A stretch of 34,003 bases of DNA from Acidimicrobiaceae bacterium (lineage in GTDB: Bacteria; Actinomycetota; Acidimicrobiia; Acidimicrobiales; RAAP-2). The notes under the pieces were generated by a model that did not search any database, was not told where the DNA came from, and saw only the letters and a program-made list of their open reading frames with translations. The stretch spans positions 1 through 34,003 of the forward strand of contig JABEUQ010000173.1 in the NCBI GenBank assembly GCA_013044265.1, given 5' to 3'. The position numbers and the translations under genes are program-made. This document shows, in pieces, positions 21,897-34,003 of this stretch; position 1 is the stretch's first letter; each line of letters opens with the position of its first letter.

Positions 21897-24370
21897 ATTT
21901 CTTCTCCCGCGGGAACCACTGCAGCAGTTGCCACCGAATGTCCTTCGTCGAGATTCATCACGCGCACACCCGTGGCGTCACGTCCCTGCGAAGAAACTTC
22001 CCTCGCCGAGGTTCGGATGAGCACACCACCACTCGAGGCAAGTAACAGTTCGTCATCGAGTCGAACCATGAACGAAGCCACTACGAAACCTCGCGCCGCC
22101 GAGAGCTTGATCGCTCGTACACCCTGACCGCCACGACCTTGACGATTGAAACGTTCTGTCTTGACGCGCTTGCCAAATCCGGTATCGGTCACGAGAAACA
22201 AATCTGCGTCGTCGCGTACAACGTCAAGGGAGATCGCCTTGTCGTCTTCTCGTAGTTTGATCGCTCGTACGCCGGTCGCATCACGTCCCATTTCACGGAC
22301 TTCGCTCTCGTTGAAGCGGATGGACATGCCACGGAAAGTAACCACCATCAGGTCATCTTCACCACTCGTTGGTACAACACGAACCACCTCATCGCCCTCA
22401 CGTAGTTTGATGGCAATCCAACCTTCGCGTCGTGATTTGTCGTACTCGGAGAACGGAGTCTTCTTCACTGTCCCGTTCGCGGTCGCGAAGACTAGAAACT
22501 TATCGTCGGGGAAATCACTGGTAGTGACAATTGCTTGAATTGATTCGTTGGGCTGAAGATTCAACAAGTTAACTATTGCCGTCCCCTTGGCAGTGCGCTC
22601 CTTGATGGGAATCTCGTGACCGCGCAACCGGAATACCCTTCCGAGATTCGAGAAGAGCAGGAGATACGCGTGGGTCGTCGTGTGCACAATTTGTTCAACG
22701 AAGTCCTCTTCTTTGAGCTTGGCACCTTGAACTCCGCGTCCACCTCTCGCCTGAGTGCGAAATGCATCCGCCGAGACTGACTTGATGTAGCCCGCTTGGG
22801 TCATGGTGATCACCACGTCCTCATCGTCGATGAGATCCTCCATGCCCAGTTCACCTGGATCATTAACGATTCGCGTGAGGCGCGCCGTCGCGTACTTATC
22901 GCGAATCACCGTAATCTCATCAGCGATCACCGTACGCAACTTCTGGTCGTCCGCGAGGATTGACTGCAGTCCTGCAATCGTCTCACGTAGTTTGTTCATT
23001 TCCTCTTCGAGCTCTGAGCGACCAAGCCGCGTCAGACGACCCAGCGTCATATCCAGGATGTGATTAGCCTGCTCCTCTGAAAAATCAAAGGGGTTCGCCA
23101 TGAGGGCAATGCGAGCCGCGCCGCGATCGTCTGAACCACGAATGGTGGCGATCACGAGATCGAGCATGTCGATTGCCTTTAGGAGGCCTTCGACGATGTG
23201 TGCGCGCGCCTCGGCTTTGCGCAGGCGGAATTGAGTACGTCGCGTCACCACGTCAACTTGGTGGTCAATGTAGTGACCGAGTGCTTGAGCCAGGTTGAGA
23301 GTGCGAGGGACCCCATCGACTAACGCCAGTTGGTTTACAGCAAAAGTGGTCTGAAGAGAGGTGTTCTTGTAGAGCTTGTTTAAAACTACGTTGGCGTTGG
23401 CATCGCGTTTGAGCTCGATCACCAGACGTGCTTTGCGTCCTGCAGAGTCATTTTGGACACCTGAAATACCGTCGAGTTCGCCAATCTTTACCAGGTCGTG
23501 AATCTTTTCCTCGATCGATTCAACCGACACCTCATAGGGAAATTCGGTCACAACAATACGACTAGCCCGTGCGGTTTCCTCGATCTCAGCGACCGCTCGC
23601 ATCTTGATAGAACCACGTCCTGTACGTATAGCGTCAAGAATTCCTTGGCGACCTAAAATTTGTGCCCCAGTGGGAAAGTCGGGCCCCTTCACAAAGGCCA
23701 TTAAGTCGTCGGGGGTCGCTTCGGGATGAGCTAAAAGATGTAGTACCGCATCGATAGTCTCACCGAGATTATGTGGTGGAATCTTGGTAGCCATTCCCAC
23801 CGCAATGCCTTGGGACCCGTTGACTAATAAGTTGGGAAAGCGTGCTGGAAGTACGGTGGGTTGCTGGGTGGAGTTGTCATAGTTTGGCTCAAAGTCAACA
23901 GTCTCTTCGTCAATGGAATCCAAGAGTTCCAGAGCGAGTGGCGCTAGGCGACACTCGGTGTAGCGCATGGCAGCGGCGCCCTCGTCTGGACCAGTGCCTC
24001 CAAAGTTACCGTGGCCACTGATAAGCGGGTGGCGCATGGCAAAATCCTGGACCATTCGCACGAGTGCGTCATAGATGGCGCTATCGCCATGGGGGTGATA
24101 GGTACCCATGACTTCTCCAACAACCTTCGCACACTTGGTGTGAGGTCGGTCAGGTCGCAGACCTTGGTCGAACATTGAATAAAGAATTCGACGGTGCACT
24201 GGCTTGAGTCCATCGCGTGCGTCGGGGAGGGCCCGTGACACGATGACAGACATCGAATACTCCAAGAAGGAGCGCTCCATCTCAAGGTTGATCTCGATGG
24301 GTTCGATGTAACCGAGGACTTCATCACCCCCACCGGTGTTGGAAGTGTTGTTGCTATTGGATCGAGCCAT
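21893..24370 (-). CDS. gyrA: DNA gyrase subunit A
   Basis: The 825-residue protein contains the breakage-reunion domain, with catalytic Tyr137 in '[11 protein letters not shown]'. The quinolone-determining region '[15 protein letters not shown]' has Ser97 and Asp101, matching E. coli Ser83 and Asp87, so there is no classical resistance change. A coiled-coil segment with its gate is at about 360-500. The C-terminal six-bladed beta-pinwheel has the GyrA-box '[10 protein letters not shown]', which wraps DNA to introduce negative supercoils. With GyrB it forms the A2B2 gyrase. The ATG at 24370 has AGAAGGA upstream and lies 14 bases after gyrB, so the two are co-transcribed. The final codons overlap the convergent DsbA-family gene. 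Confidence 0.97.
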
Positions 24371-24384
24371 GATTTCCTTCTCTC

Positions 24385-26328
<1,944 letters not shown>

Positions 26329-26444
26329 TCAATCGTTAAAATTTCGGCGCGCACGACGCAACCGTGTTTACAAGAAACTTGCTTCCATCCTACTGGTTAC
26401 CCACTGACATTTAAGCTGCCTGGGTGCTTAAAAAGCCTATTATT

Positions 26445-26747
26445 TTAGGGTTTCTGGGTGGTTTTCAGTGATCGAGGCGCGCGATCCCCGAGCACTGAGA
26501 GACCCTCCAAAATTGACTCTTGTTCGAGGTTGATTTGTTGAGCAAATGCACCGGACGGCACGCTAATAATGAGTACTTGTTTTTTAACAAATTCGGGGTG
26601 GCAGGACTGCGCAACAGCCACTTCGACTAGCGATGGCCACAAGGCTTGGATTTCCTCCATGATGTTGAGATCGACCTTTTTTACTCGGTTCGCCATCGTC
26701 CGCAACACATCGCCGAGGGGGGTTGGTTGATCGGAGAATTTCCTCAT
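26445..26747 (-). CDS. dciA: DciA (DUF721) replicative-helicase loader
   Basis: The 100-residue protein has the DUF721 pattern. A helical N-terminus 'PTPLGDVLRTMANRV' is followed by 'LWPSLVEVAVAQSCHPEFVKKQVLIISVPSGAFAQQI', cited here in outline only. This is a KH-like fold with the conserved Trp, the 'VPSGAFAQQI' strand-helix and a terminal helix. DciA is the ancestral partner that loads DnaB helicase at the origin, in bacteria lacking DnaC or DnaI. The start overlaps the recF stop as ATGA (26744-26747), which implies translational coupling. The protein is shorter than mycobacterial DciA (about 160-190 residues), lacking a long disordered N-terminal extension. Confidence 0.85.
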   Translation of the reverse strand: MRKFSDQPTPLGDVLRTMANRVKKVDLNIMEEIQALWPSLVEVAVAQSCHPEFVKKQVLIISVPSGAFAQQINLEQESILEGLSVLGDRAPRSLKTTQKP

Positions 26748-27823
26748 ATCTCAACCGTAAGATCAATGATCACCGCAGGTGTCATTGCTTTAGGAAGTGG
26801 TGAGGCGGTGGTGACTAGGGTTTGTCCACCCGGAAGGAGGCGTAACAATCGGTCGCTACGCACTGGATCGAGTTCACTAAAAACATCGTCCAGTAAAAGA
26901 AGAGGGGCAACAATGCGTTCTTGCTGCACCAATTCATGCCCAGCAAGACGAATTGAAAGTGCTAGGGAGCGCTGTTCCCCTTGTGAGGCCTGGCGTCGCG
27001 CATCGCGAGTGTCTAGTTGAAGGATGACGTCGTCGCGATGTGGGCCAATTGTGCTGTATCCACGTTGTACGTCGTCCGGCAACACCGCCCAGAGTGCTTG
27101 GTCGAGGTTCCCCACCCAAGATTTCTCATATTCTGCGCTGATCGCCAGGTTGTCGTGGGCTAATTCTTGATAGAAGTGGGTGATCAGTGGTGACAGTCGT
27201 TGTAGCAAATGTTGGCGCTCACCAATGAGTTCTTCAGCTGCCAAACAGAACTCGGCGTCCCACACCAAAAGTTCTTCACGTTGTCTTAAGGATGGTTTTA
27301 TGCCTTGTAGGCCGCGTAAGAAGGCGTTGCGTTGTTGGAGAACCTTGGCATAACGCTCAATGATTTCTCCGGTATGGGGCCATACATCGGTTAACAAATT
27401 AGAGATCAGAGTACGACGTTGGTCGGGTCCTTGGCGTACGACGTCCACTCCTTCAGGGGTGAACACCGTGAGGGGTAGAACTTCCGCTACGGCGGCGCGT
27501 GATTGTGGTCGTTGTCCGTTGACCAGCATTCTTTTAGTGGTGTTACGCAAACCACGGTGCAGCGTTAAATCGACTTGCACCCTCCGTTCTCTTTGAAAAA
27601 GAACACCGTGTACCTCGGCTAAGTCGTGGTGCGCACGAATCATGTCACTCGCTGAAGTAGTGCGAAAGGAGCTCGCTGTTGCTATGGCGTACACCGCTTC
27701 AAGTATCGAGGTTTTGCCTGTGCCATTAGGTGACAACAGCACCGTGACTGCGTCGCGGTCGGGTTGAAAAACAAATTCTTTAAACGACCGAAAATTACGC
27801 AGGGTGAGTTCGTGGAGCCCCAC
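26744..27823 (-). CDS. recF: RecF recombination mediator ATPase
   Basis: The 359-residue SMC/ABC-type protein opens with 'LHELTLRNFRSFKEF', the RecF signature start. It has an ABC signature 'SQGEQRSLALSIRL' and Walker B 'PLLLLDDVFSELDP'. The phosphate loop reads 'SPNGTGKTS', with Ser31 where the family usually has Gly. RecF acts at single-strand gaps with RecO and RecR to load RecA. The start is GTG at 27823 with no clear Shine-Dalgarno, 15 bases after the dnaN stop. The reading frame overlaps dciA by four bases. The order dnaN-recF-dciA-gyrB-gyrA is the standard actinobacterial replication operon. Confidence 0.95.
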   Translation of the reverse strand: MGLHELTLRNFRSFKEFVFQPDRDAVTVLLSPNGTGKTSILEAVYAIATASSFRTTSASDMIRAHHDLAEVHGVLFQRERRVQVDLTLHRGLRNTTKRMLVNGQRPQSRAAVAEVLPLTVFTPEGVDVVRQGPDQRRTLISNLLTDVWPHTGEIIERYAKVLQQRNAFLRGLQGIKPSLRQREELLVWDAEFCLAAEELIGERQHLLQRLSPLITHFYQELAHDNLAISAEYEKSWVGNLDQALWAVLPDDVQRGYSTIGPHRDDVILQLDTRDARRQASQGEQRSLALSIRLAGHELVQQERIVAPLLLLDDVFSELDPVRSDRLLRLLPGGQTLVTTASPLPKAMTPAVIIDLTVEI

Positions 27824-27837
27824 GAGGTCAACCAGCT

Positions 27838-28938
27838 CTACTGAACACGAACCGGCATTAGAAGATACCGGAAACGAACGTCTTCGACTCCGTGCACCAT
27901 TGCGGGCCGCACGGCGTCTGACATCTCTAACATGACCTCATCACCAACAACGGCTTCAATTCCATCTATTAAAAATGATGGGTTGAAAGCGATTGTAAGT
28001 TCCTCCCCTTGATAGTCAGCATCAACGTTGTCTTCAATATCACCAGTGTCGACACTTTGTGTTCGAATCTCGACTGTTTTTTCTTTCATTGTTAGACGCA
28101 CTGATGAGGTTGAGTCTTTCGCTAGGAGTTTTGCTCTCTTAAGTGACGTCAACAGGGTGTCTTTGGCGATCCGTAGTTGATTGGGATAGCTAGCGGGAAT
28201 CAATTGAAGAACCGAAGGGTAGTTTCCGTCAATTAGACGAGAAGAGATCGTGCTGGAACCAACAACGAAGCAGATCTCGGCGTCAGTCAGTGTTACCCCG
28301 ATCTCGGCGTCCGCCGCTAGCGAGGCTGCTCCTCGTTGTAGTTCTTGTAGAGCTCGTGCTGGAACTAGAAGATCGTGTGAACCACCAATACCCGCGACGC
28401 CAGGTACATCACGAACCGCGAGTCGGTACGAGTCGGTTGCGATAAGACGCAGGGTGTTGTTTTCATGAGTAAAAAGTACTCCTGTCAACAAAGGGCGAGC
28501 GTCGTCATTGGCTGCCGCGCGAACCACTTGGTTCAGCCCTTGAACTAGGTCGTTCGCAGTAATGGCCGTTGTTGCCCCCGACACTGGTGGAATGTTGGGG
28601 TAATCCATAACCGAAAATGTTCGTAGTGAGAATTTTGCTCGTCCGAGTGAGACTTCGACGTTTTCATCGAGGTTCGCGATAGTCACCGCCCCGGCCTCGA
28701 GTGATCTAACTGCATCGACGATGAGCCGAGCTGGAACGACCGCCGCCCCATCTTCGAGACCAATGACATCAACGTTCGTACGCACGGTGATATCTAAATC
28801 GGTACCGGTGACTGTCAGTTGATTCCCCGTCAGTGAAAGGAGTATCCCCGACGAAGCGCCGATAAGACGGGTGGCGACAACTCGACTCGCTGCACTAAGT
28901 GCTTCAACCAGCAGATCGCGTTCTGATTTGAACTTCAT
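27838..28938 (-). CDS. dnaN: DNA polymerase III sliding clamp (beta subunit)
   Basis: The 366-residue protein shows the three-fold repeated clamp layout. The N-terminal domain begins 'MKFKSERDLLVEALSAASRVV', quoted in part. The middle domain has 'ATDSYRLAVRD', a clamp-typical motif. The C-terminal domain ends in 'HGVEDVRFRYLLMPVRVQ', where the final hydrophobic pocket and the Met-Pro-(Val/Met)-Arg end are characteristic. As a dimeric ring it tethers Pol III and binds many partners. The ATG at 28938 has AAAGG eight bases upstream. It is first in the left-going operon after the origin. Confidence 0.96.
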   Translation of the reverse strand: MKFKSERDLLVEALSAASRVVATRLIGASSGILLSLTGNQLTVTGTDLDITVRTNVDVIGLEDGAAVVPARLIVDAVRSLEAGAVTIANLDENVEVSLGRAKFSLRTFSVMDYPNIPPVSGATTAITANDLVQGLNQVVRAAANDDARPLLTGVLFTHENNTLRLIATDSYRLAVRDVPGVAGIGGSHDLLVPARALQELQRGAASLAADAEIGVTLTDAEICFVVGSSTISSRLIDGNYPSVLQLIPASYPNQLRIAKDTLLTSLKRAKLLAKDSTSSVRLTMKEKTVEIRTQSVDTGDIEDNVDADYQGEELTIAFNPSFLIDGIEAVVGDEVMLEMSDAVRPAMVHGVEDVRFRYLLMPVRVQ

Positions 28939-29190
28939 GGAACGGCCTTTCTTTGCTACTGAGGATACGTGTGGATGGATATATAAAAGTTATTCAGTAG
29001 TAGTAGGTCTGTGGATTTGTGGATAACCACGTGAAATACCTGATGAATTGTGACATGAACGTGAAGGTTTCCTGCACAGGCGTGTGGAGAGTTTCTTCAA
29101 CCCTCTAAATTCAACTATGGAGTTATGTGGATTCATCGCCGGGTTATCCACTGATATCAACACGAGAGTCGTCAGTTTTTGCACAAGCCC
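28939..29190. other. oriC: Origin of replication (oriC) in dnaA-dnaN gap
   Basis: This 252-base gap between dnaA and dnaN is the usual actinobacterial origin location. I see DnaA-box-like 9-mers at 28970-28978 (TGTGGATGG), 29010-29018 (TGTGGATTT), 29018-29026 (TGTGGATAA, perfect), 29126-29134 (TGTGGATTC) and 29144-29152 (TTATCCACT, one mismatch). Three TAG trinucleotides sit directly beside the 29010 box. An AT-rich tract (28975-28997, containing ATATATAAAAG) lies next to the TAGs. The dnaN promoter must also lie here. Confidence 0.8.
28998..29006 (+). other. DnaA-trio element of the basal unwinding system
   Basis: TAG-TAG-TAG is followed by the spacer GTC and then the DnaA boxes at 29010 and 29018. 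This is the order box, short GC spacer, trios, AT-rich DNA of the bacterial basal origin unwinding system, read on this strand in reverse. The trios would guide DnaA oligomerisation on single-stranded DNA leftwards towards dnaN. Three trios is close to the known minimum. Confidence 0.6.
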
Positions 29191-30546
29191 CTACAGCTCC
29201 CCTTGGAGTTGTTGAGTCAGTGTGTTGACCTGATTCAACAACTCGACATTCACTGTTATCTGCTCTTTAATTTTTTCTACGGCGCTGATGACGGTGGTGT
29301 GGTTACGGCCGTCAAAAATTCGCGCAATCATCGGGTAGGAATAGTTATCCAGGAGGTCGCGAATGAGATACATAGCAACGTGGCGAGCTTGTACTAAAGG
29401 ACGAAGTCGCTTTGAACCAAGGACGTCCTCGGTACTCAAACCGTAAAAATCTGCGACTGCCTTAACAATTGTCTCTGGCTTCAGAACGACGTGTTCGTGG
29501 CCCAAACCAGTCAGGTGTCGTTGAGCCAACTCGAGAGAGATTGGTACCTGGTGAAGGTTAGAAAATGCCCGCAGCATCGTTATGGATCCTTCGAGCTCAC
29601 GAATATTGTCGCGAACGCGGTGAGCAATCCACTCAGTGACATCATTCGGGAGGGTGATGCCCTCCGCCTCAGACTTCGAGCGGAGGATTGCAATGCGGGT
29701 TTCTAAATCCGGTTGGTCGATATGGGTGACCAAGCCCTGGAGTAAACGACTACGAAAACGTTCTTGTAGTCCAGCGAGGTCGCGAGGTGAACGATCAGAA
29801 GTCAACACAATTTGCTTACCCTCACTGTGGAGGGTGTTGTACGTGTGAAAGATTTCTTCATGGAAGGTCTCACCACGAGCCTCCATGAACTGAATGTCGT
29901 CAATCAGCAATACGTCGACCTCACGATAACGCTCGTGGAGCGCGAGTTGAGTCCGCGTCTGGATTGCGCGAATGAAATCGTTCAGGAATGTTTCGGTCGA
30001 AACGTACAGCACTTTACGGAAGGGATAGTTTTCCTGAACATAATTTCCGATGGCGTGAAGTAGGTGTGTTTTCCCAAGGCCCGAGTTGCCGTACATTAAT
30101 AGAGGATAGTAAGCACGACCAGGTGTTTCAGCAGCTGCAAACGCAGCAGATCTCGCTAACTGGTTGGAGTTGCCAACAACAAAAGTGTCGAAAGTCATTC
30201 GAGGGTCGAGACGAAGGGGTCGATCCGCGCTTGTTACACGAGGTACAGCTACTTCGTTTTCAATCGGGACATTCTCGACCATTGGTTCGTGAACATCTCC
30301 TTCACCGACAGTTAACGAGATGGTCACCGATCGCCCCAATAACCGTTGAGCTTGTTCAGTAATTAATGGTAGGTATCGCTGTTGAACTCGTAACAATTGA
30401 ATTTGATTCGGCGCAGAAATGATGAGTTGGTCATTTTGGTAATCCACAAGGCGCAGTGCACTAAGTCCCGCTGACCACATTGCTTCAGAAGTGTTACCAC
30501 GCAAGGAGTCCTGTAGAGCAGACCACACCTCATCAATACTCTGCAT
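29191..30546 (-). CDS. dnaA: Chromosomal replication initiator DnaA
   Basis: I take the ATG at 30546, preceded by GGAGG with four-base spacing; a longer open frame upstream has no support. The 451-residue protein has domain I (about 1-80), a short linker (81-110) and an AAA+ domain. That domain has Walker A 'GNSGLGKTH' (153-161), Walker B 'DVLLIDDIQF' (211-220) and the arginine-finger 'RFRSRLLQG'. Domain IV is a helix-turn-helix with 'SKRLRPLVQARHVAMYL'. The signature reads 'GRNHTTV' (413-419), with Asn415 where DnaA almost always has Asp. It binds TTATCCACA boxes and melts the origin. Domain II is much shorter than in Streptomyces. Confidence 0.96.
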   Translation of the reverse strand: MQSIDEVWSALQDSLRGNTSEAMWSAGLSALRLVDYQNDQLIISAPNQIQLLRVQQRYLPLITEQAQRLLGRSVTISLTVGEGDVHEPMVENVPIENEVAVPRVTSADRPLRLDPRMTFDTFVVGNSNQLARSAAFAAAETPGRAYYPLLMYGNSGLGKTHLLHAIGNYVQENYPFRKVLYVSTETFLNDFIRAIQTRTQLALHERYREVDVLLIDDIQFMEARGETFHEEIFHTYNTLHSEGKQIVLTSDRSPRDLAGLQERFRSRLLQGLVTHIDQPDLETRIAILRSKSEAEGITLPNDVTEWIAHRVRDNIRELEGSITMLRAFSNLHQVPISLELAQRHLTGLGHEHVVLKPETIVKAVADFYGLSTEDVLGSKRLRPLVQARHVAMYLIRDLLDNYSYPMIARIFDGRNHTTVISAVEKIKEQITVNVELLNQVNTLTQQLQGEL

Positions 30547-30569
30547 CGTTCCTCCACAGACCAAAACTG

Positions 30570-30597
30570 ACTTTATCCACAACCAAACCATTGTCAA
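30570..30597 (-). promoter_or_regulatory. Predicted dnaA promoter overlapped by a DnaA box
   Basis: On the minus strand TTGACA (30597-30592) and TAAAGT (30575-30570) lie 16 bases apart, about 25 bases upstream of the dnaA start codon. The perfect DnaA box TTATCCACA (30573-30581) overlaps the -10 element. This fits negative autoregulation of dnaA by DnaA. Confidence 0.55.
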
Positions 30598-30758
30598 ATT
30601 CGTTGGTCTGCCCACTTGGGTTTGTAACACTACACCGCTACGAGGCTCTCGCACAGTGGGACGGGGTCACTTGTCGGGTAGGATTGTCCCCAGTAACGCG
30701 CCAGCGACCCCCAGGGGGTAACGCGAAGCGTATTGACACAGCTTGAGAAGAGGATTTT

Positions 30759-30893
30759 GTGAAGCGTACCTATCAGCCAAATCAGCGGAAAAGGGCTAAA
30801 ACCCACGGATTCCGCGCCCGGATGAGCACTCGCGCAGGTCGTGCTGTGTTGAAGTCTCGCCGTCTCAAGGGCCGTCGCCAACTGACGGTCTGA
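30759..30893 (+). CDS. rpmH: Ribosomal protein bL34
   Basis: A 44-codon gene starts at GTG 30759 and ends with TGA at 30891-30893. The product starts '[18 protein letters not shown]' and contains the family core '[20 protein letters not shown]', the signature of bL34 of the large ribosomal subunit. AGAGGA lies five bases upstream of the GTG. It is divergent from dnaA and heads the right-going operon with rnpA eight bases downstream, the standard arrangement. Confidence 0.95.
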
Positions 30894-30901
30894 GCCGTCC
30901 T

Positions 30902-31228
30902 ATGCCCGGTCGGGTTAGTACCCGACGGCAATTTGCCGAATTTGCGACACCAACGGGCCGTGGACAGAGTGGATCTCTTCGAGTTCTTTTCGTTGAGCAC
31001 TCCAACCAGGGTTCATTCGACGTGGCTTACGCAATCAGCCGTAAGGTTGGCAATGCGGTTGTGCGCAATCGGATTCGCCGGCGCCTCCGGGCAGTTATGG
31101 ACAGCCTTTCCCCCGCCCCAAAGACAGGTTTATACCTGATCAAGTGTGGTAACGGGACAGGAGAACTCACCTATGACGAAATCCAACAACACCTCCAAGT
31201 CGCACTCGCAAGAGCTCGAGCAGTCTGA
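30902..31228 (+). CDS. rnpA: Ribonuclease P protein component
   Basis: The 108-residue basic protein has the RnpA signature 'SRKVGNAVVRNRIRRRLR' (about residues 46-63), which contacts the RNA subunit. It assists the RNase P RNA in 5' maturation of tRNAs. It begins eight bases after rpmH with no strong ribosome binding site, so coupling to rpmH translation is likely. The tail overlaps the first 56 bases of yidD. Confidence 0.93.
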   Translation: MPGRVSTRRQFAEFATPTGRGQSGSLRVLFVEHSNQGSFDVAYAISRKVGNAVVRNRIRRRLRAVMDSLSPAPKTGLYLIKCGNGTGELTYDEIQQHLQVALARARAV

Positions 31229-31475
31229 ACTCTCCCGGGCGTCACAAGTGCTTCTTTCACTCATTTCTTGGTATCAGAAGGCACGCGCGGGCCGAATTGC
31301 GCCCTGTCGGTTTTACCCATCGTGTTCGAGTTACGCGTACGAAGCAGTAGAAGTCCACGGTGTGATTCGAGGACTAGGGCTGGCATTACGTCGTATCTCA
31401 AAGTGTCGGCCCCTCGGCCCACACGGAATAGACCTCGTACCCGTAGTTAAGAAAGATAGGTCAAGTACTTTATGA
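31173..31475 (+). CDS. yidD: Membrane protein insertion efficiency factor YidD
   Basis: I use the ATG at 31173 (upstream GGAG), which overlaps the rnpA end; a longer frame begins at 31146. The 100-residue protein has the YidD core 'CRFYPSCSSYAYEAVEVHG' and 'ISKCRPLGPHG' with the three conserved Cys. A membrane-peripheral helix precedes it ('VLLSLISWYQKA'). It helps YidC-dependent membrane-protein insertion. Its stop overlaps the yidC start as ATGA. Confidence 0.92.
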   Translation: MTKSNNTSKSHSQELEQSELSRASQVLLSLISWYQKARAGRIAPCRFYPSCSSYAYEAVEVHGVIRGLGLALRRISKCRPLGPHGIDLVPVVKKDRSSTL

Positions 31476-32404
31476 AGTCCCTCACTCACTCCATTGGCTC
31501 CCTCTTTCAGCCAATCTTCAAACTCTTCGGCTGGATTCTTGCTTTCTTTTATGGGTTGATTCCCAATTACGGTGTTGCGATTGTCCTTCTGACCATTGTG
31601 ATCATGGGGGCACTCACCCCCTTCACCATTAAGAGCACGAAGTCAATGCAGGCAATGCAGAAACTTCAACCGGAGATCAAGAAACTTCAACAAAAATATA
31701 AAGGTCCTGAGAATCGCCAGATTCTTAACGAAGAAATGATGAAGCTGTACAAAGAGGAGGGCGCCAATCCCCTAGGCGGTTGCCTTCCAGTACTGCTCCA
31801 GGCACCGTTCCTCTTCATTCTTTACAGTGTGATTAAAGGTCTCGCGAATGTTGTCCTACAAGGGAAAACTCTGGTAGCACAGCCTCGTTACATCCCACAG
31901 TCATCAACGATGTATCACAACCTGGTTGCTTCACATGGTCAAATCAATGTATTCGGCATGGACTTGAACCTCAAGGCATTCAGTGCCCATAGTTCTTTCA
32001 TGGCACAAGTACCATTCTTTGTCTTCGTGGCGGTGGCGGTGGGGCTGCAGTATTTCCAAATGGCACAGCTCAATAATCGCAGCCGCAAAGTAGGACAACC
32101 AATGCCATCTCAACAACAGATGATGCAGCGCTTCCCGCCGATTTTTTTCGCATACTTCTATTTGATAATTCCAGCTGCAGTTGTGCTGTACATGATTGTT
32201 TCTACAGGAATCCGCATTATTACTCAAGATCTGATGTTCCGTTCCGGTATTTCGAATCCCCAGAAGAACGGTGTGAGATCCGTCGAAAAGGAGTTGCCGG
32301 CCGCGGCGCAGAGCAAGGAAACGAAGGATGATCAGAAACCTTCAACTATCAAGCCGCAAGCGCAAAGTCGCTCGAAGGCAAAGCGCAAAAGGAAGGAACG
32401 CTAG
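31472..32404 (+). CDS. yidC: YidC/Oxa1 membrane protein insertase
   Basis: The 310-residue protein has about five transmembrane segments. The first contains 'YGVAIVLLTIVIMGALTPF', followed by a cytoplasmic helical hairpin 'SMQAMQKLQPEIKKLQQKYK'. 'GANPLGGCLPVLLQAPFLF' starts the next segment. A long extracytoplasmic stretch follows (about 130-175), then further helices and a very basic tail (SRSKAKRKRKER) for ribosome binding. It inserts membrane proteins alone or with SecYEG. The Arg usually found in TM1 of the hydrophilic groove (R-L-x-x-x-P in Bacillus) is Met or Gly here. It follows yidD by overlap and precedes jag by two bases. Confidence 0.95.
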   Translation: MKSLTHSIGSLFQPIFKLFGWILAFFYGLIPNYGVAIVLLTIVIMGALTPFTIKSTKSMQAMQKLQPEIKKLQQKYKGPENRQILNEEMMKLYKEEGANPLGGCLPVLLQAPFLFILYSVIKGLANVVLQGKTLVAQPRYIPQSSTMYHNLVASHGQINVFGMDLNLKAFSAHSSFMAQVPFFVFVAVAVGLQYFQMAQLNNRSRKVGQPMPSQQQMMQRFPPIFFAYFYLIIPAAVVLYMIVSTGIRIITQDLMFRSGISNPQKNGVRSVEKELPAAAQSKETKDDQKPSTIKPQAQSRSKAKRKRKER

Positions 32405-32406
32405 AA

Positions 32407-33279
32407 ATGGATTGGGTTGAAACCACCGGTAAATCAATCGACGAGGCCACCGATCGAGCCCTCGCTCATCTCGGGGTTCATCGAGATGATGCAGAAATTG
32501 AAGTTCTCGAGGAACCAAAAGCGGGACTTTTTGGTCGAATTCGTGGTGAGGCCCGCGTGCGTGCCCGCGTGCGACCAGCTGGACCTCGCCCTAAGCGCTC
32601 ACGCCGTTCGGGTGGACGAGAAGATAAACCTAAAAATCCCGAGGGTCGCGATAACAAGAGTAGAGCTCCAAAACCCAAGTCGAACGATGGGGAACGAGCC
32701 CGAAGTACACGAGAGCGTCCTGAATCAGGTCGCCCCAAGCAGGTTTCAAAAGGACCATCAACGAAGTCCGAGAAGGTTTCATTAAAGGAGAGCAACATGG
32801 CTGAAGGAATCACACTGGCAGAACAGGGTGTTATCGGTAAGGGTTTCCTCGAGGGCTTGCTGTCGTCGATGAATATCACTGCTCAGGTTAATGTCCGTGA
32901 GATTGACGAAGAGACTGTCGAGTTGTCGGTTAATGCCACTCCCCCTACCGAACTGGGTGTGCTTGTAGGGCCTCGCGGAACAACCCTGCAGGCCTTACAA
33001 GAGGTCACCCGTACGGTTGTTCAATCGAAGAGTCCCGGTCGTACTGATCGGATTCTGGTCGATGTGGCTCAATATCGTGAACGTCGAGTGGCGGCGCTCG
33101 GCCGTTTCGCGAACCAGGTTGCACAAGAAGTGGTGGAGAGCGGCGAAGAGCGCGCCCTAGAGCCAATGTCCGCTGCAGATCGGAAGGCCATCCACGACGC
33201 ACTTTCGGGTCTTGATTCAGTGGTTACTCGATCAGAGGGCGAGGAGCCTCGCCGATTCGTGGTTGTTTCTCCGGCATAA
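32407..33279 (+). CDS. jag: Jag/KhpB RNA-binding protein
   Basis: The 290-residue protein has an N-terminal Jag domain (about 1-50, with 'EVLEEPKAGLFGRIRGEARV'). A long charged linker follows (about 58-130, Lys/Arg/Pro/Ser-rich). Then comes a KH domain (about 150-215) with 'LGVLVGPRGTTLQAL', and an R3H domain with 'YRERRVAALGRFANQVAQEV' and 'LEPMSAADRKAIHDAL'. It binds RNA; in other Gram-positive bacteria KhpB works with KhpA in cell-length and envelope control. The start is two bases after yidC, with GGAAGGA upstream inside yidC. Confidence 0.92.
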   Translation: MDWVETTGKSIDEATDRALAHLGVHRDDAEIEVLEEPKAGLFGRIRGEARVRARVRPAGPRPKRSRRSGGREDKPKNPEGRDNKSRAPKPKSNDGERARSTRERPESGRPKQVSKGPSTKSEKVSLKESNMAEGITLAEQGVIGKGFLEGLLSSMNITAQVNVREIDEETVELSVNATPPTELGVLVGPRGTTLQALQEVTRTVVQSKSPGRTDRILVDVAQYRERRVAALGRFANQVAQEVVESGEERALEPMSAADRKAIHDALSGLDSVVTRSEGEEPRRFVVVSPA

Positions 33280-33287
33280 TTAGAGTC

Positions 33288-33911
33288 GTGACAATTCAGT
33301 GGTTGTACCGCGCCCTCGAGGAATCGAGGGCGCGGGGCTTTTTAGGACCGATGCCCATCGAAACACAAATCGATCATGCAGCCGGCTTCTTCCAAGTATG
33401 GGACGATCTCAACAGTGTTCCCCCTAGTCAATTTCTGGATCTCGGTAGTGGAGGGGGATTGCCAGGATTGGTGCTCTTTGAGCACTGGGCTGTTCCCGCT
33501 ACTTTTTTGGACTCAATGGTCAAGAGGACCAACTTCCTACAAGAGGTCATGGACTGGGACGGTGTTCCTGGGGTCGCTAGGGTCATTAACGGTCGAGCCG
33601 AGCAGCTTTCTCGTGAGAGAGTATTCGATGGTCAGTTCCCCCTTGTTACTGCTCGCTCTTTCGGCCCCCCTGCGGTGACGGCGGAGTGCGCAACCAGATT
33701 CTTAAGTGTTGGCGGCATCTTGATCGTTTCTGAACCACCAACTGAAGGCGATGTCGATCGCTGGAATCCGTCTGCTTTAGGACAGCTAGGTCTACATTCC
33801 GAAGGTCGTATCAGAAAAGGTGCAGCTTTTCAGATCATTAGAAAGACAAAAGCGACTCCCGATCGATTTCCTCGCGAGATTGGTACACCAGGTAAAAACC
33901 CTTTATTCTGA
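33288..33911 (+). CDS. rsmG: 16S rRNA m7G527 methyltransferase RsmG
   Basis: The 207-residue protein has the SAM motif 'FLDLGSGGGLPGLVL' (about residues 49-63), 'FLDSMVKRTNFLQEV' and the C-terminal 'DRFPREIGTPGKNPLF', close to the RsmG ending RYPRRPG.P.K.PL. It methylates G527 of 16S rRNA; loss gives low-level streptomycin resistance. The called start is GTG at 33288, eight bases after jag, without a ribosome binding site. A terminator-like hairpin lies at 33308-33343 within this frame. The ATG at 33351 (residue 22), which has AGGA just upstream, is an alternative start and would leave the hairpin intergenic. Confidence 0.9.
   Translation: MTIQWLYRALEESRARGFLGPMPIETQIDHAAGFFQVWDDLNSVPPSQFLDLGSGGGLPGLVLFEHWAVPATFLDSMVKRTNFLQEVMDWDGVPGVARVINGRAEQLSRERVFDGQFPLVTARSFGPPAVTAECATRFLSVGGILIVSEPPTEGDVDRWNPSALGQLGLHSEGRIRKGAAFQIIRKTKATPDRFPREIGTPGKNPLF
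33308..33343 (+). terminator. Intrinsic-terminator-like hairpin inside 5' rsmG
   Basis: CCGCGCCCTCGA and TCGAGGGCGCGG pair perfectly over 12 bp with a GGAA (GNRA-type) loop, followed by GGCTTTTT. This is a strong Rho-independent terminator sequence for right-going transcripts. Its position is just after the jag stop and 20 bases into rsmG as usually called. Confidence 0.7.
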
Positions 33912-33927
33912 TGTTTCACGTGAAACA
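33912..33927. other. parS: parS centromere site
   Basis: TGTTTCACGTGAAACA is a perfect 16-bp palindrome identical to the bacterial parS consensus (TGTTNCACGTGAAACA). It is the binding and CTP-loading site of ParB, used for origin segregation and SMC loading. It lies directly at the rsmG stop, near the expected parA-parB genes and about 4.8 kb from the oriC gap. Confidence 0.93.
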
Positions 33928-33945
33928 TAGTGACTCTAGAGGAGA

Positions 33946-34003
33946 ATGGACGGGGTCGATCACGTAATCACTGGAGCAGGGCTCTCGACGAGGTTGGCCC
34001 ACC
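33946..34003 (+). CDS. Start of a gene after parS, probably parA (partial)
   Basis: An ATG at 33946 with GAGGAG just upstream (very short spacing) opens a frame to the window edge, beginning 'MDGVDHVITGAG'. A GTG at 33930 in another frame is also open. The place after rsmG and parS is where parA (soj) is expected, but no Walker motif is reached, so identity and start are inferred from position only. Confidence 0.35.
   Translation, partial: MDGVDHVITGAGLSTRLAH

Follow-up and report, generated by a model that had tools for sequence, protein, structure and literature searches.

A covarying, terminator-like hairpin kept within the first codons of rsmG in one genus of Acidimicrobiaceae

In the window analyzed here, the whole stretch of 34,003 nucleotides, the early codons of rsmG also spell out a terminator-like hairpin, and a hairpin occupies the identical rsmG codons in 74 of the 81 loci compared from the same genus. 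The element is probably an intrinsic (Rho-independent) terminator, set in rsmG codons 7-19, that ends most of the transcripts coming from rpmH-jag, with read-through setting the transcription of rsmG. One stretch of DNA is kept for two readings: it encodes residues 7-19 of an rRNA methyltransferase, and it forms a terminator-like hairpin whose arms covary. The genomes concerned span about 56% GC (the source window) to 71% GC (the G142 stretch).

The 3' end of the window has the gene order dnaA(-)/rpmH-rnpA-yidD-yidC-jag-rsmG, with a Pfam assignment for every gene, and stops 92 nt past rsmG. GC content declines from about 0.55-0.60 to about 0.49-0.54 toward the dnaA-rpmH region (window 22000-34003). 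The rsmG product carries the GidB domain (PF02527, 49.6 bits against a cut-off of 27) and matches the RsmG structure PDB 3g88 with an E value of 3.4e-13; its score with NCBIfam TIGR00138, 53.3 bits, lies below the equivalog cut-off of 99.5. The name rsmG, for the 16S rRNA G527 methyltransferase, is therefore given on the Pfam domain, the position after jag and the PDB match.

Table 1. Features at the jag-rsmG junction and downstream, in window coordinates.
Feature	Position	Strand	Remarks	Basis
jag (khpB/eloR)	32407..33279	+	gene preceding rsmG; 3' end GCA TAA	Pfam Jag_N and R3H, NCBIfam Jag_EloR, above cut-off
CATAAT, candidate -10 box	33275..33280	+	spans the jag stop; -13..-8 of the rsmG GTG	
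rsmG (gidB)	33288..33911	+	GTG start; without Shine-Dalgarno-like 4-mer	Pfam GidB; start conserved
5' arm of terminator-like hairpin	33308..33319	+	in rsmG codons 7-11	
GGAA (GNRA) tetraloop	33320..33323	+	GGAA in 58/74 carriers	
3' arm of terminator-like hairpin	33324..33335	+	in rsmG codons 13-16	
U-tract, T5	33339..33343	+	rsmG codons 17-19 (GGC TTT TTA); GGC is the 3-nt spacer after the stem	
parS palindrome, exact 16-mer	33912..33927	.	abuts rsmG stop; member of a cluster in relatives	

A preliminary description of this DNA had reported a perfect 12-bp stem, a GNRA loop and a T5 run 20 bases into rsmG, and these coordinates hold. Ten of the 12 pairs are GC, which makes this the GC-rich stem-loop of an intrinsic terminator, and the U-tract, the second mark of that class, lies 3' of the stem on the sense strand. 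The folding z-score is -3.0 over 33280-33360, and the segment 33288-33343 folds at -30.1 kcal/mol with a z-score of -4.7. Might such a structure simply arise by chance? Terminator-like sites as a class are not above expectation: 11 were listed in 24000-34003 against 10.4 in shuffles, and a second scan, of the whole window, gave three against six in the reversed control. In the first list no site is longer or richer in GC than the rsmG hairpin, and in the second none scores higher. The claim that it stands above chance accordingly comes from codon choice and conservation, rather than from scan counts. In an amino-acid-preserving Monte Carlo procedure 7.8 of the 12 pairs are expected, against a mean of 11.9 observed over 74 species. 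For the source species, only 0.14% of draws reach the stem and 0.05% reach the stem together with the T count; the T count by itself is unremarkable, being reached in 44% of draws (P 0.44). Across the carriers, which are not independent of one another, the stem has P < 0.01 in 68 of 74 and stem plus T count P < 0.001 in 65 of 74, and the T count alone has P < 0.05 under codon shuffling in only 18 of 74.

Several familiar identities were discarded. A dispersed repeat is ruled out by the single copy of the stem pattern in its own genome, with up to three mismatches tolerated. No known RNA family was recognized: Rfam 15 gave no match at gathering score in the window, and in four relatives it gave four miRNA hits, all below threshold. 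Mimicry of 16S helix 18, the substrate region of RsmG, was rejected as well: the longest word that it shares with 16S rRNA from one relative (L214, G142) is 5 nt, and 264 of 300 shuffles reach it.

Does the hairpin overlap genuine coding sequence, or does rsmG begin downstream of it? One alternative has the gene begin at the ATG at 33351, so that the hairpin would be an ordinary non-coding terminator. The source species does contain that ATG and an AGGA upstream of it (33344-33347), as the preliminary description had pointed out. Against this start, the 33351 position holds a start-like codon in only three of 74 carriers, and 72 of 74 have GTG or ATG at the position of 33288; the two exceptions, L028 and L071, seem by eye to have a GTG two to three codons upstream. 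RsmG residues 5-19 are nearly fixed among carriers, residue 7 excepted, and the corresponding motif [GR][FYL][LI]G is found in all 34 clean non-carriers, every one of them without this hairpin. Since the peptide motif is kept where the hairpin is absent, the constraint on the peptide is not due to the hairpin, and a conserved peptide together with a non-conserved ATG at 33351 places the start at 33288 and the hairpin within codons. The downstream start is thus scarcely credible, and an overlap of the hairpin with the true rsmG coding sequence is supported by these comparisons. The preliminary description had leaned the same way, toward a hairpin over coding sequence. It had posed this as the alternative to a terminator of the rpmH-to-jag unit with rsmG starting at 33351; the late start fails, the terminator survives as something inferred, and the two readings merge into one, a likely terminator inside real coding sequence.

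Codon choice points to a second demand on these residues. Arginine 14 is AGG in 71 of 74 carriers, although elsewhere in rsmG this codon accounts for 10% of arginines, and TCG, GCG, CGC and CTC are likewise preferred in the hairpin arms. In the U-tract, TTT is used in 63 of 74 carriers, and residue 19 is TTA in 54 and TTG in 19, together 73 of 74, codons with 5% and 13% usage elsewhere in rsmG; non-carriers there have TTC in 22 of 34 and TTA in none. L071 keeps its U-tract codons against usage even though third-position GC in its rsmG is 86%. The last codons of jag (33240-33280 in the window) are biased also: CCT at -10 in 47 of 74 against 16% usage, GCA, the final Ala codon, at -1 in 50 of 74 against 13%, and GTG at -6 in 71 and at -5 in 60 of 74 against 33%.

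The family search covered 172 genomes, in 151 of which rsmG was matched; 84 of these, by hand count and with the source genome included, belong to the same genus, and 81 of the 84 loci were compared, with G099, G116 and G154 left out. Of the 67 genomes with an rsmG match outside the genus, 29 contributed a locus. Loci were placed ungapped and in frame on the motif GFLGP. One spurious relative, L032, turned up in the relatives search. All 12 pairs form in 67 carriers and 11 pairs in the other seven. The hairpin is absent from five same-genus loci (L064, L077, L078, L081 and L082), and in two, L006 and L038, Ns sit within it; the hairpin may hinder sequencing or assembly. None of the 29 loci from other genera has it. 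A covariance model, run under strict filtering at the cost of some weak matches, found nothing in the family's other 20 genera among the 172 genomes, and its 79 matching genomes are all of this genus. Of these, 77 were counted, namely the 74 carriers with G116, G154 and G078 (the genome of L038); G129, which is the degenerate L064, and G169, an off-site match at E 4.2e-4, were not. Over 397 genomes of the order the model gave 13 matches, 12 in this genus and one in G266 (E 6.7e-4). The G266 match was rejected: its locus, 601 of whose 1941 bases were inspected directly, has no match to rsmG or jag at E up to 10. Two loci of other genera have sites of their own: in L109 the corresponding part of rsmG holds another terminator-like hairpin, followed by TTTCTT, through chance or convergence, and the non-carrier L087 has a terminator-like site upstream of rsmG.

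The stem covaries. In an alignment of 75 sequences (the 74 carriers and L064), 96.2% of the cells pair, and both sides have changed in nine of 14 pairs, with 34 such cells against 4.8 in shuffles. On none of five covariation measures did any of 500 shuffles reach the observed value; slid registers scored far lower. RNAalifold recovers the same inner 12 pairs. A rough tally of changes to or from double-changed pairs, made with Fitch counts on a FastTree tree from which the first 21 RsmG residues were omitted, gives about 30 independent events, 13 of them at the outer pair 21-48. The hairpin structure is under selection. Conservation of both stem and peptide, and compensatory changes, were the signs that the preliminary description had proposed to look for, and all are present. 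A different explanation for a selected palindrome is that a protein binds it as DNA, or that it is a by-product of the nearby parS region, and one can note that the core sequence is strikingly constant among carriers and that a parS cluster lies downstream. Either version is nevertheless very improbable: the arms change pairwise to quite different sequences with the stem preserved (L045, L072), G-U pairs are kept, the T tract is retained on one side only, and the hairpin sequence differs from parS.

What is the history of the element? In a tree of 109 rows that includes the hairpin codons, the 'none' label needs three changes and the 'hairpin' label four, the latter because a row with Ns is counted apart; in a quick tree without the hairpin codons the 'none' label needs two. 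We read the history as one apparent gain by the ancestor of the genus, followed by two losses. L064 and the clade of L077, L078, L081 and L082 have lost the U-tract together with the stem, TTC CTG or TTC CTC standing in its place, and this joint loss argues that the two are one device. Unlike the carriers, L077 and L078 show GGAG ahead of rsmG, and their jag-rsmG gap is longer. Two losses in one genus amount to a natural experiment on the purpose of such a terminator.

The joint loss also bears on the proposal that the hairpin acts after transcription, by slowing rsmG translation or as a site of cleavage or stability, with no termination at all. A very stable fold directly after the start codon (-30 kcal/mol over 33288-33343) and the retention of G-U pairs are what such a role would predict. 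The U-tract speaks against it, in the preference for the rare TTA codon among carriers, in its absence at this place in all 34 non-carriers, and in the disappearance of the U-tract where the stem is gone. A purely post-transcriptional role seems to us unlikely.

How would a terminator operate here? RNA polymerase from the rpmH-rnpA-yidD-yidC-jag unit would run past the jag stop and form the hairpin and U-tract; we infer that most polymerases are then released in vivo after about 55 nt of rsmG, and that the rsmG mRNA comes from those that read through. The stem begins 20 nt past the rsmG GTG and 28 nt past the jag stop; 67 of 74 carriers have 27-28 nt between jag stop and stem. At this distance ribosomes finishing jag should not cover the stem, and ribosomes initiating on rsmG should rarely arrive in time. 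In E. coli, according to the accessible part of PMC4824070, a terminator 28 bp past a stop codon was about 90% efficient and one 5 bp past a stop less than 10%, and for a terminator placed 30 bp into an ORF translation lowered termination by only about 10%; by analogy, these data suggest that translation protects little so near a start codon, which tells against the proviso in the preliminary description that translating ribosomes would spare rsmG. Because the spacing fits these rules, ribosomes on jag and rsmG would usually not block termination, whose efficiency would be fixed if the E. coli values apply. The outcome would be a fixed step-down in expression level between a ribosomal-protein operon and the gene for an rRNA methyltransferase of which the cell needs little, and the benefit would presumably lie there; less transcription would also enter the parS cluster downstream.

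The forms of the element among carriers are consistent with termination. Contiguous stem pairs, G-U included, number 11-15 across the 74 carriers and reach 15 in 39, and in 37 of those 39 the T run begins at the end of the stem or one base inside it. A terminator score exceeds zero in 72 of 74 carriers with a median of 48.3; the source species, at 13.4, is modest. Several observations count against a terminator: the U-tract of the source species has only five Ts and stands 3 nt off the stem, two carriers do not score above zero, and five members of the genus do without the element. In the stretches sampled from relatives, hairpin-plus-T sites barely outnumber those in reversed controls, and G142 and G097 contain few of them. 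In 800 kb of G142 (71% GC) there are four against two, the rsmG hairpin having the top score; in 160 kb of G097, four against eight, the rsmG hairpin ranking second beside a site labelled intergenic. The 240 kb of G167 has 27 against 19, several of them strong and intergenic; its 140-kb stretch has 15 against 13, with the rsmG hairpin second, and the other 100 kb has 12 against 6. In G142 and G167 the tag that the gene caller gives to this hairpin is 'in_anti', presumably because a longer open frame on the opposite strand was taken.

Might ribosomes nevertheless decide the outcome? A special form of the terminator reading, whose probability overlaps with it, is a ribosome-gated attenuator, in which read-through depends on initiation at rsmG. 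Ribosomes would enter rsmG either by re-initiating once jag is finished or by loading on leaderless mRNA, and rsmG transcription would follow initiation or the state of the ribosomes. Shine-Dalgarno-like 4-mers are found before rsmG in none of the 74 carriers, the jag-rsmG gap is 7-8 nt in 67 of 74, and the hairpin starts just past the site of an initiating ribosome. In three genomes of the genus, moreover, TANNNT is enriched at -12 of candidate starts, a mark of leaderless transcripts: stretches of G142, G167 and G097, with up to three candidate starts per gene, have 73 such sites at -12, 27 at -13 and 24 at -14, against 2-12 at the other offsets from -24 to -7. Leaderless mRNAs thus appear to be common in this genus, with a pattern like that of M. 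tuberculosis in what could be consulted of PMC3898074. The candidate box at rsmG, CATAAT, is present in 51 of 74 carriers; its first base is C, where the strict leaderless box, a TANNNT that ends 6-7 nt before the start codon, has T. In the same three genomes CANNNT is not enriched at -12, with 26 sites against 8-35 elsewhere, and CATANT three times against 0-1 elsewhere. Against gating, the small loss to translation so near a start in the accessible text of PMC4824070 leaves ribosomes little leverage, and CATAAT is missing in the GC-rich carriers L061, L067, L070, L071 and L075, which keep the hairpin. An rsmG promoter upstream of the hairpin, if there is one, would count against the terminator reading in general, since termination would cut short its transcript as well, which is an odd design.

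Attenuators of known types were sought also. Complementary stretches exist between the jag 3' end and the hairpin, but an antiterminator formed from them was rejected, since partners shuffled among species pair equally well: for three of the best pairings 929, 2000 and 1729 of 2000 shuffles were as high, which weighs against gating by this route. A leader-peptide attenuator of the trp or erm type finds no separate short leader ORF, the hairpin lying in rsmG codons after a full-length jag. We consider ribosome gating less likely than not. Somewhat more doubtful still is its full form, a gate without a leader peptide: the rsmG codons would be enzyme and terminator at once, only a ribosome re-initiating from jag or loading on leaderless mRNA would let transcription pass, and the parS cluster would be kept quiet. 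In the gate reading, passage is limited to those two routes because the start lacks a Shine-Dalgarno sequence. If a gate of this kind were true, expression of a 16S rRNA-modifying enzyme would be set by the ribosomes' own ability to initiate.

What lies downstream? The preliminary description spoke of rsmG-par expression, which reaches beyond the end of the window and is not supported, and in relatives a parS cluster (the name for this palindrome follows PMC2346475, in the portion available) precedes parA. We surveyed 37 loci with more sequence, 30 of this genus and seven others, allowing up to two mismatches; parA was identified in 34 of the 37, in each case solely from the P-loop motif. Sites identical or near to parS lie between rsmG and the parA P-loop, or the end of the stretch, in all but L240, with 3-7 copies in each of the 30 same-genus loci and 0-3 in the seven others; the first often abuts the rsmG stop. 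Every copy in L228 and L230 has one to two mismatches. One example of the cluster is L007:2125-3352. From the rsmG stop to the parA open frame the distance in relatives runs from 48 nt to about 1.7 kb. With a parS stretch between rsmG and parA, an rsmG-par operon is not to be assumed.

One would think that a terminator placed here might be retained chiefly because it keeps transcription of the ribosomal operon out of the parS cluster, a purpose compatible with the terminator reading and favored by the copies found in 30 of 30 same-genus loci. The four-species clade without the hairpin, however, has four to five such sites and L064 has four, and rsmG itself must be transcribed toward them. Because parS sites also occur in non-carriers, the role of shield is possible and not required; as the main reason for retention it is quite improbable.

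The terminator reading, then, describes a known kind of device in an unusual and well-conserved placement. Both messages are kept, and the element probably holds rsmG output down beside a ribosomal-protein operon; the arrangement suggests that in compact gene clusters a transcription unit can finish within the gene that follows it. Our search of open-licence PMC papers found no terminator embedded in rsmG codons. A near design is the engineered ORF-internal tR2 terminator of PMC4824070, which, in the part consulted, has a hairpin and U-tract within the first 100 nt of coding sequence and terminates in E. coli plasmids; the rsmG hairpin differs in being natural, and lies in conserved codons across the loci of one genus. 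The ioTTS of Methanococcus (PMC10450193) step transcription down between genes of one unit, ribosomal-protein operons included, as we propose here; they belong to archaeal machinery, and the sections available describe no codon-embedded covarying hairpin. In M. tuberculosis the rpfB-ksgA terminator and RNA switch (PMC6009663, as far as the available text goes) is an actinobacterial intrinsic terminator before ksgA, also a gene for a ribosome-maturation methyltransferase. It lies in a 5' UTR and has an alternative fold, whereas the rsmG hairpin is coding and no alternative fold was found for it among the pairings compared. ORF-internal RNA 3' ends in E. coli, some of them regulatory, are a further likeness, and are attributed to Rho termination or processing, with no genus-wide covariation described in the accessible part of PMC7815308. 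A mycobacterial gidB locus, in the portions of its description at hand, has the same gene order, promoters just upstream of gidB, and parS near gidB. There gidB and parA overlap and no embedded hairpin is described; co-transcription of jag and gidB was not detected in M. smegmatis, which resembles what is proposed here.
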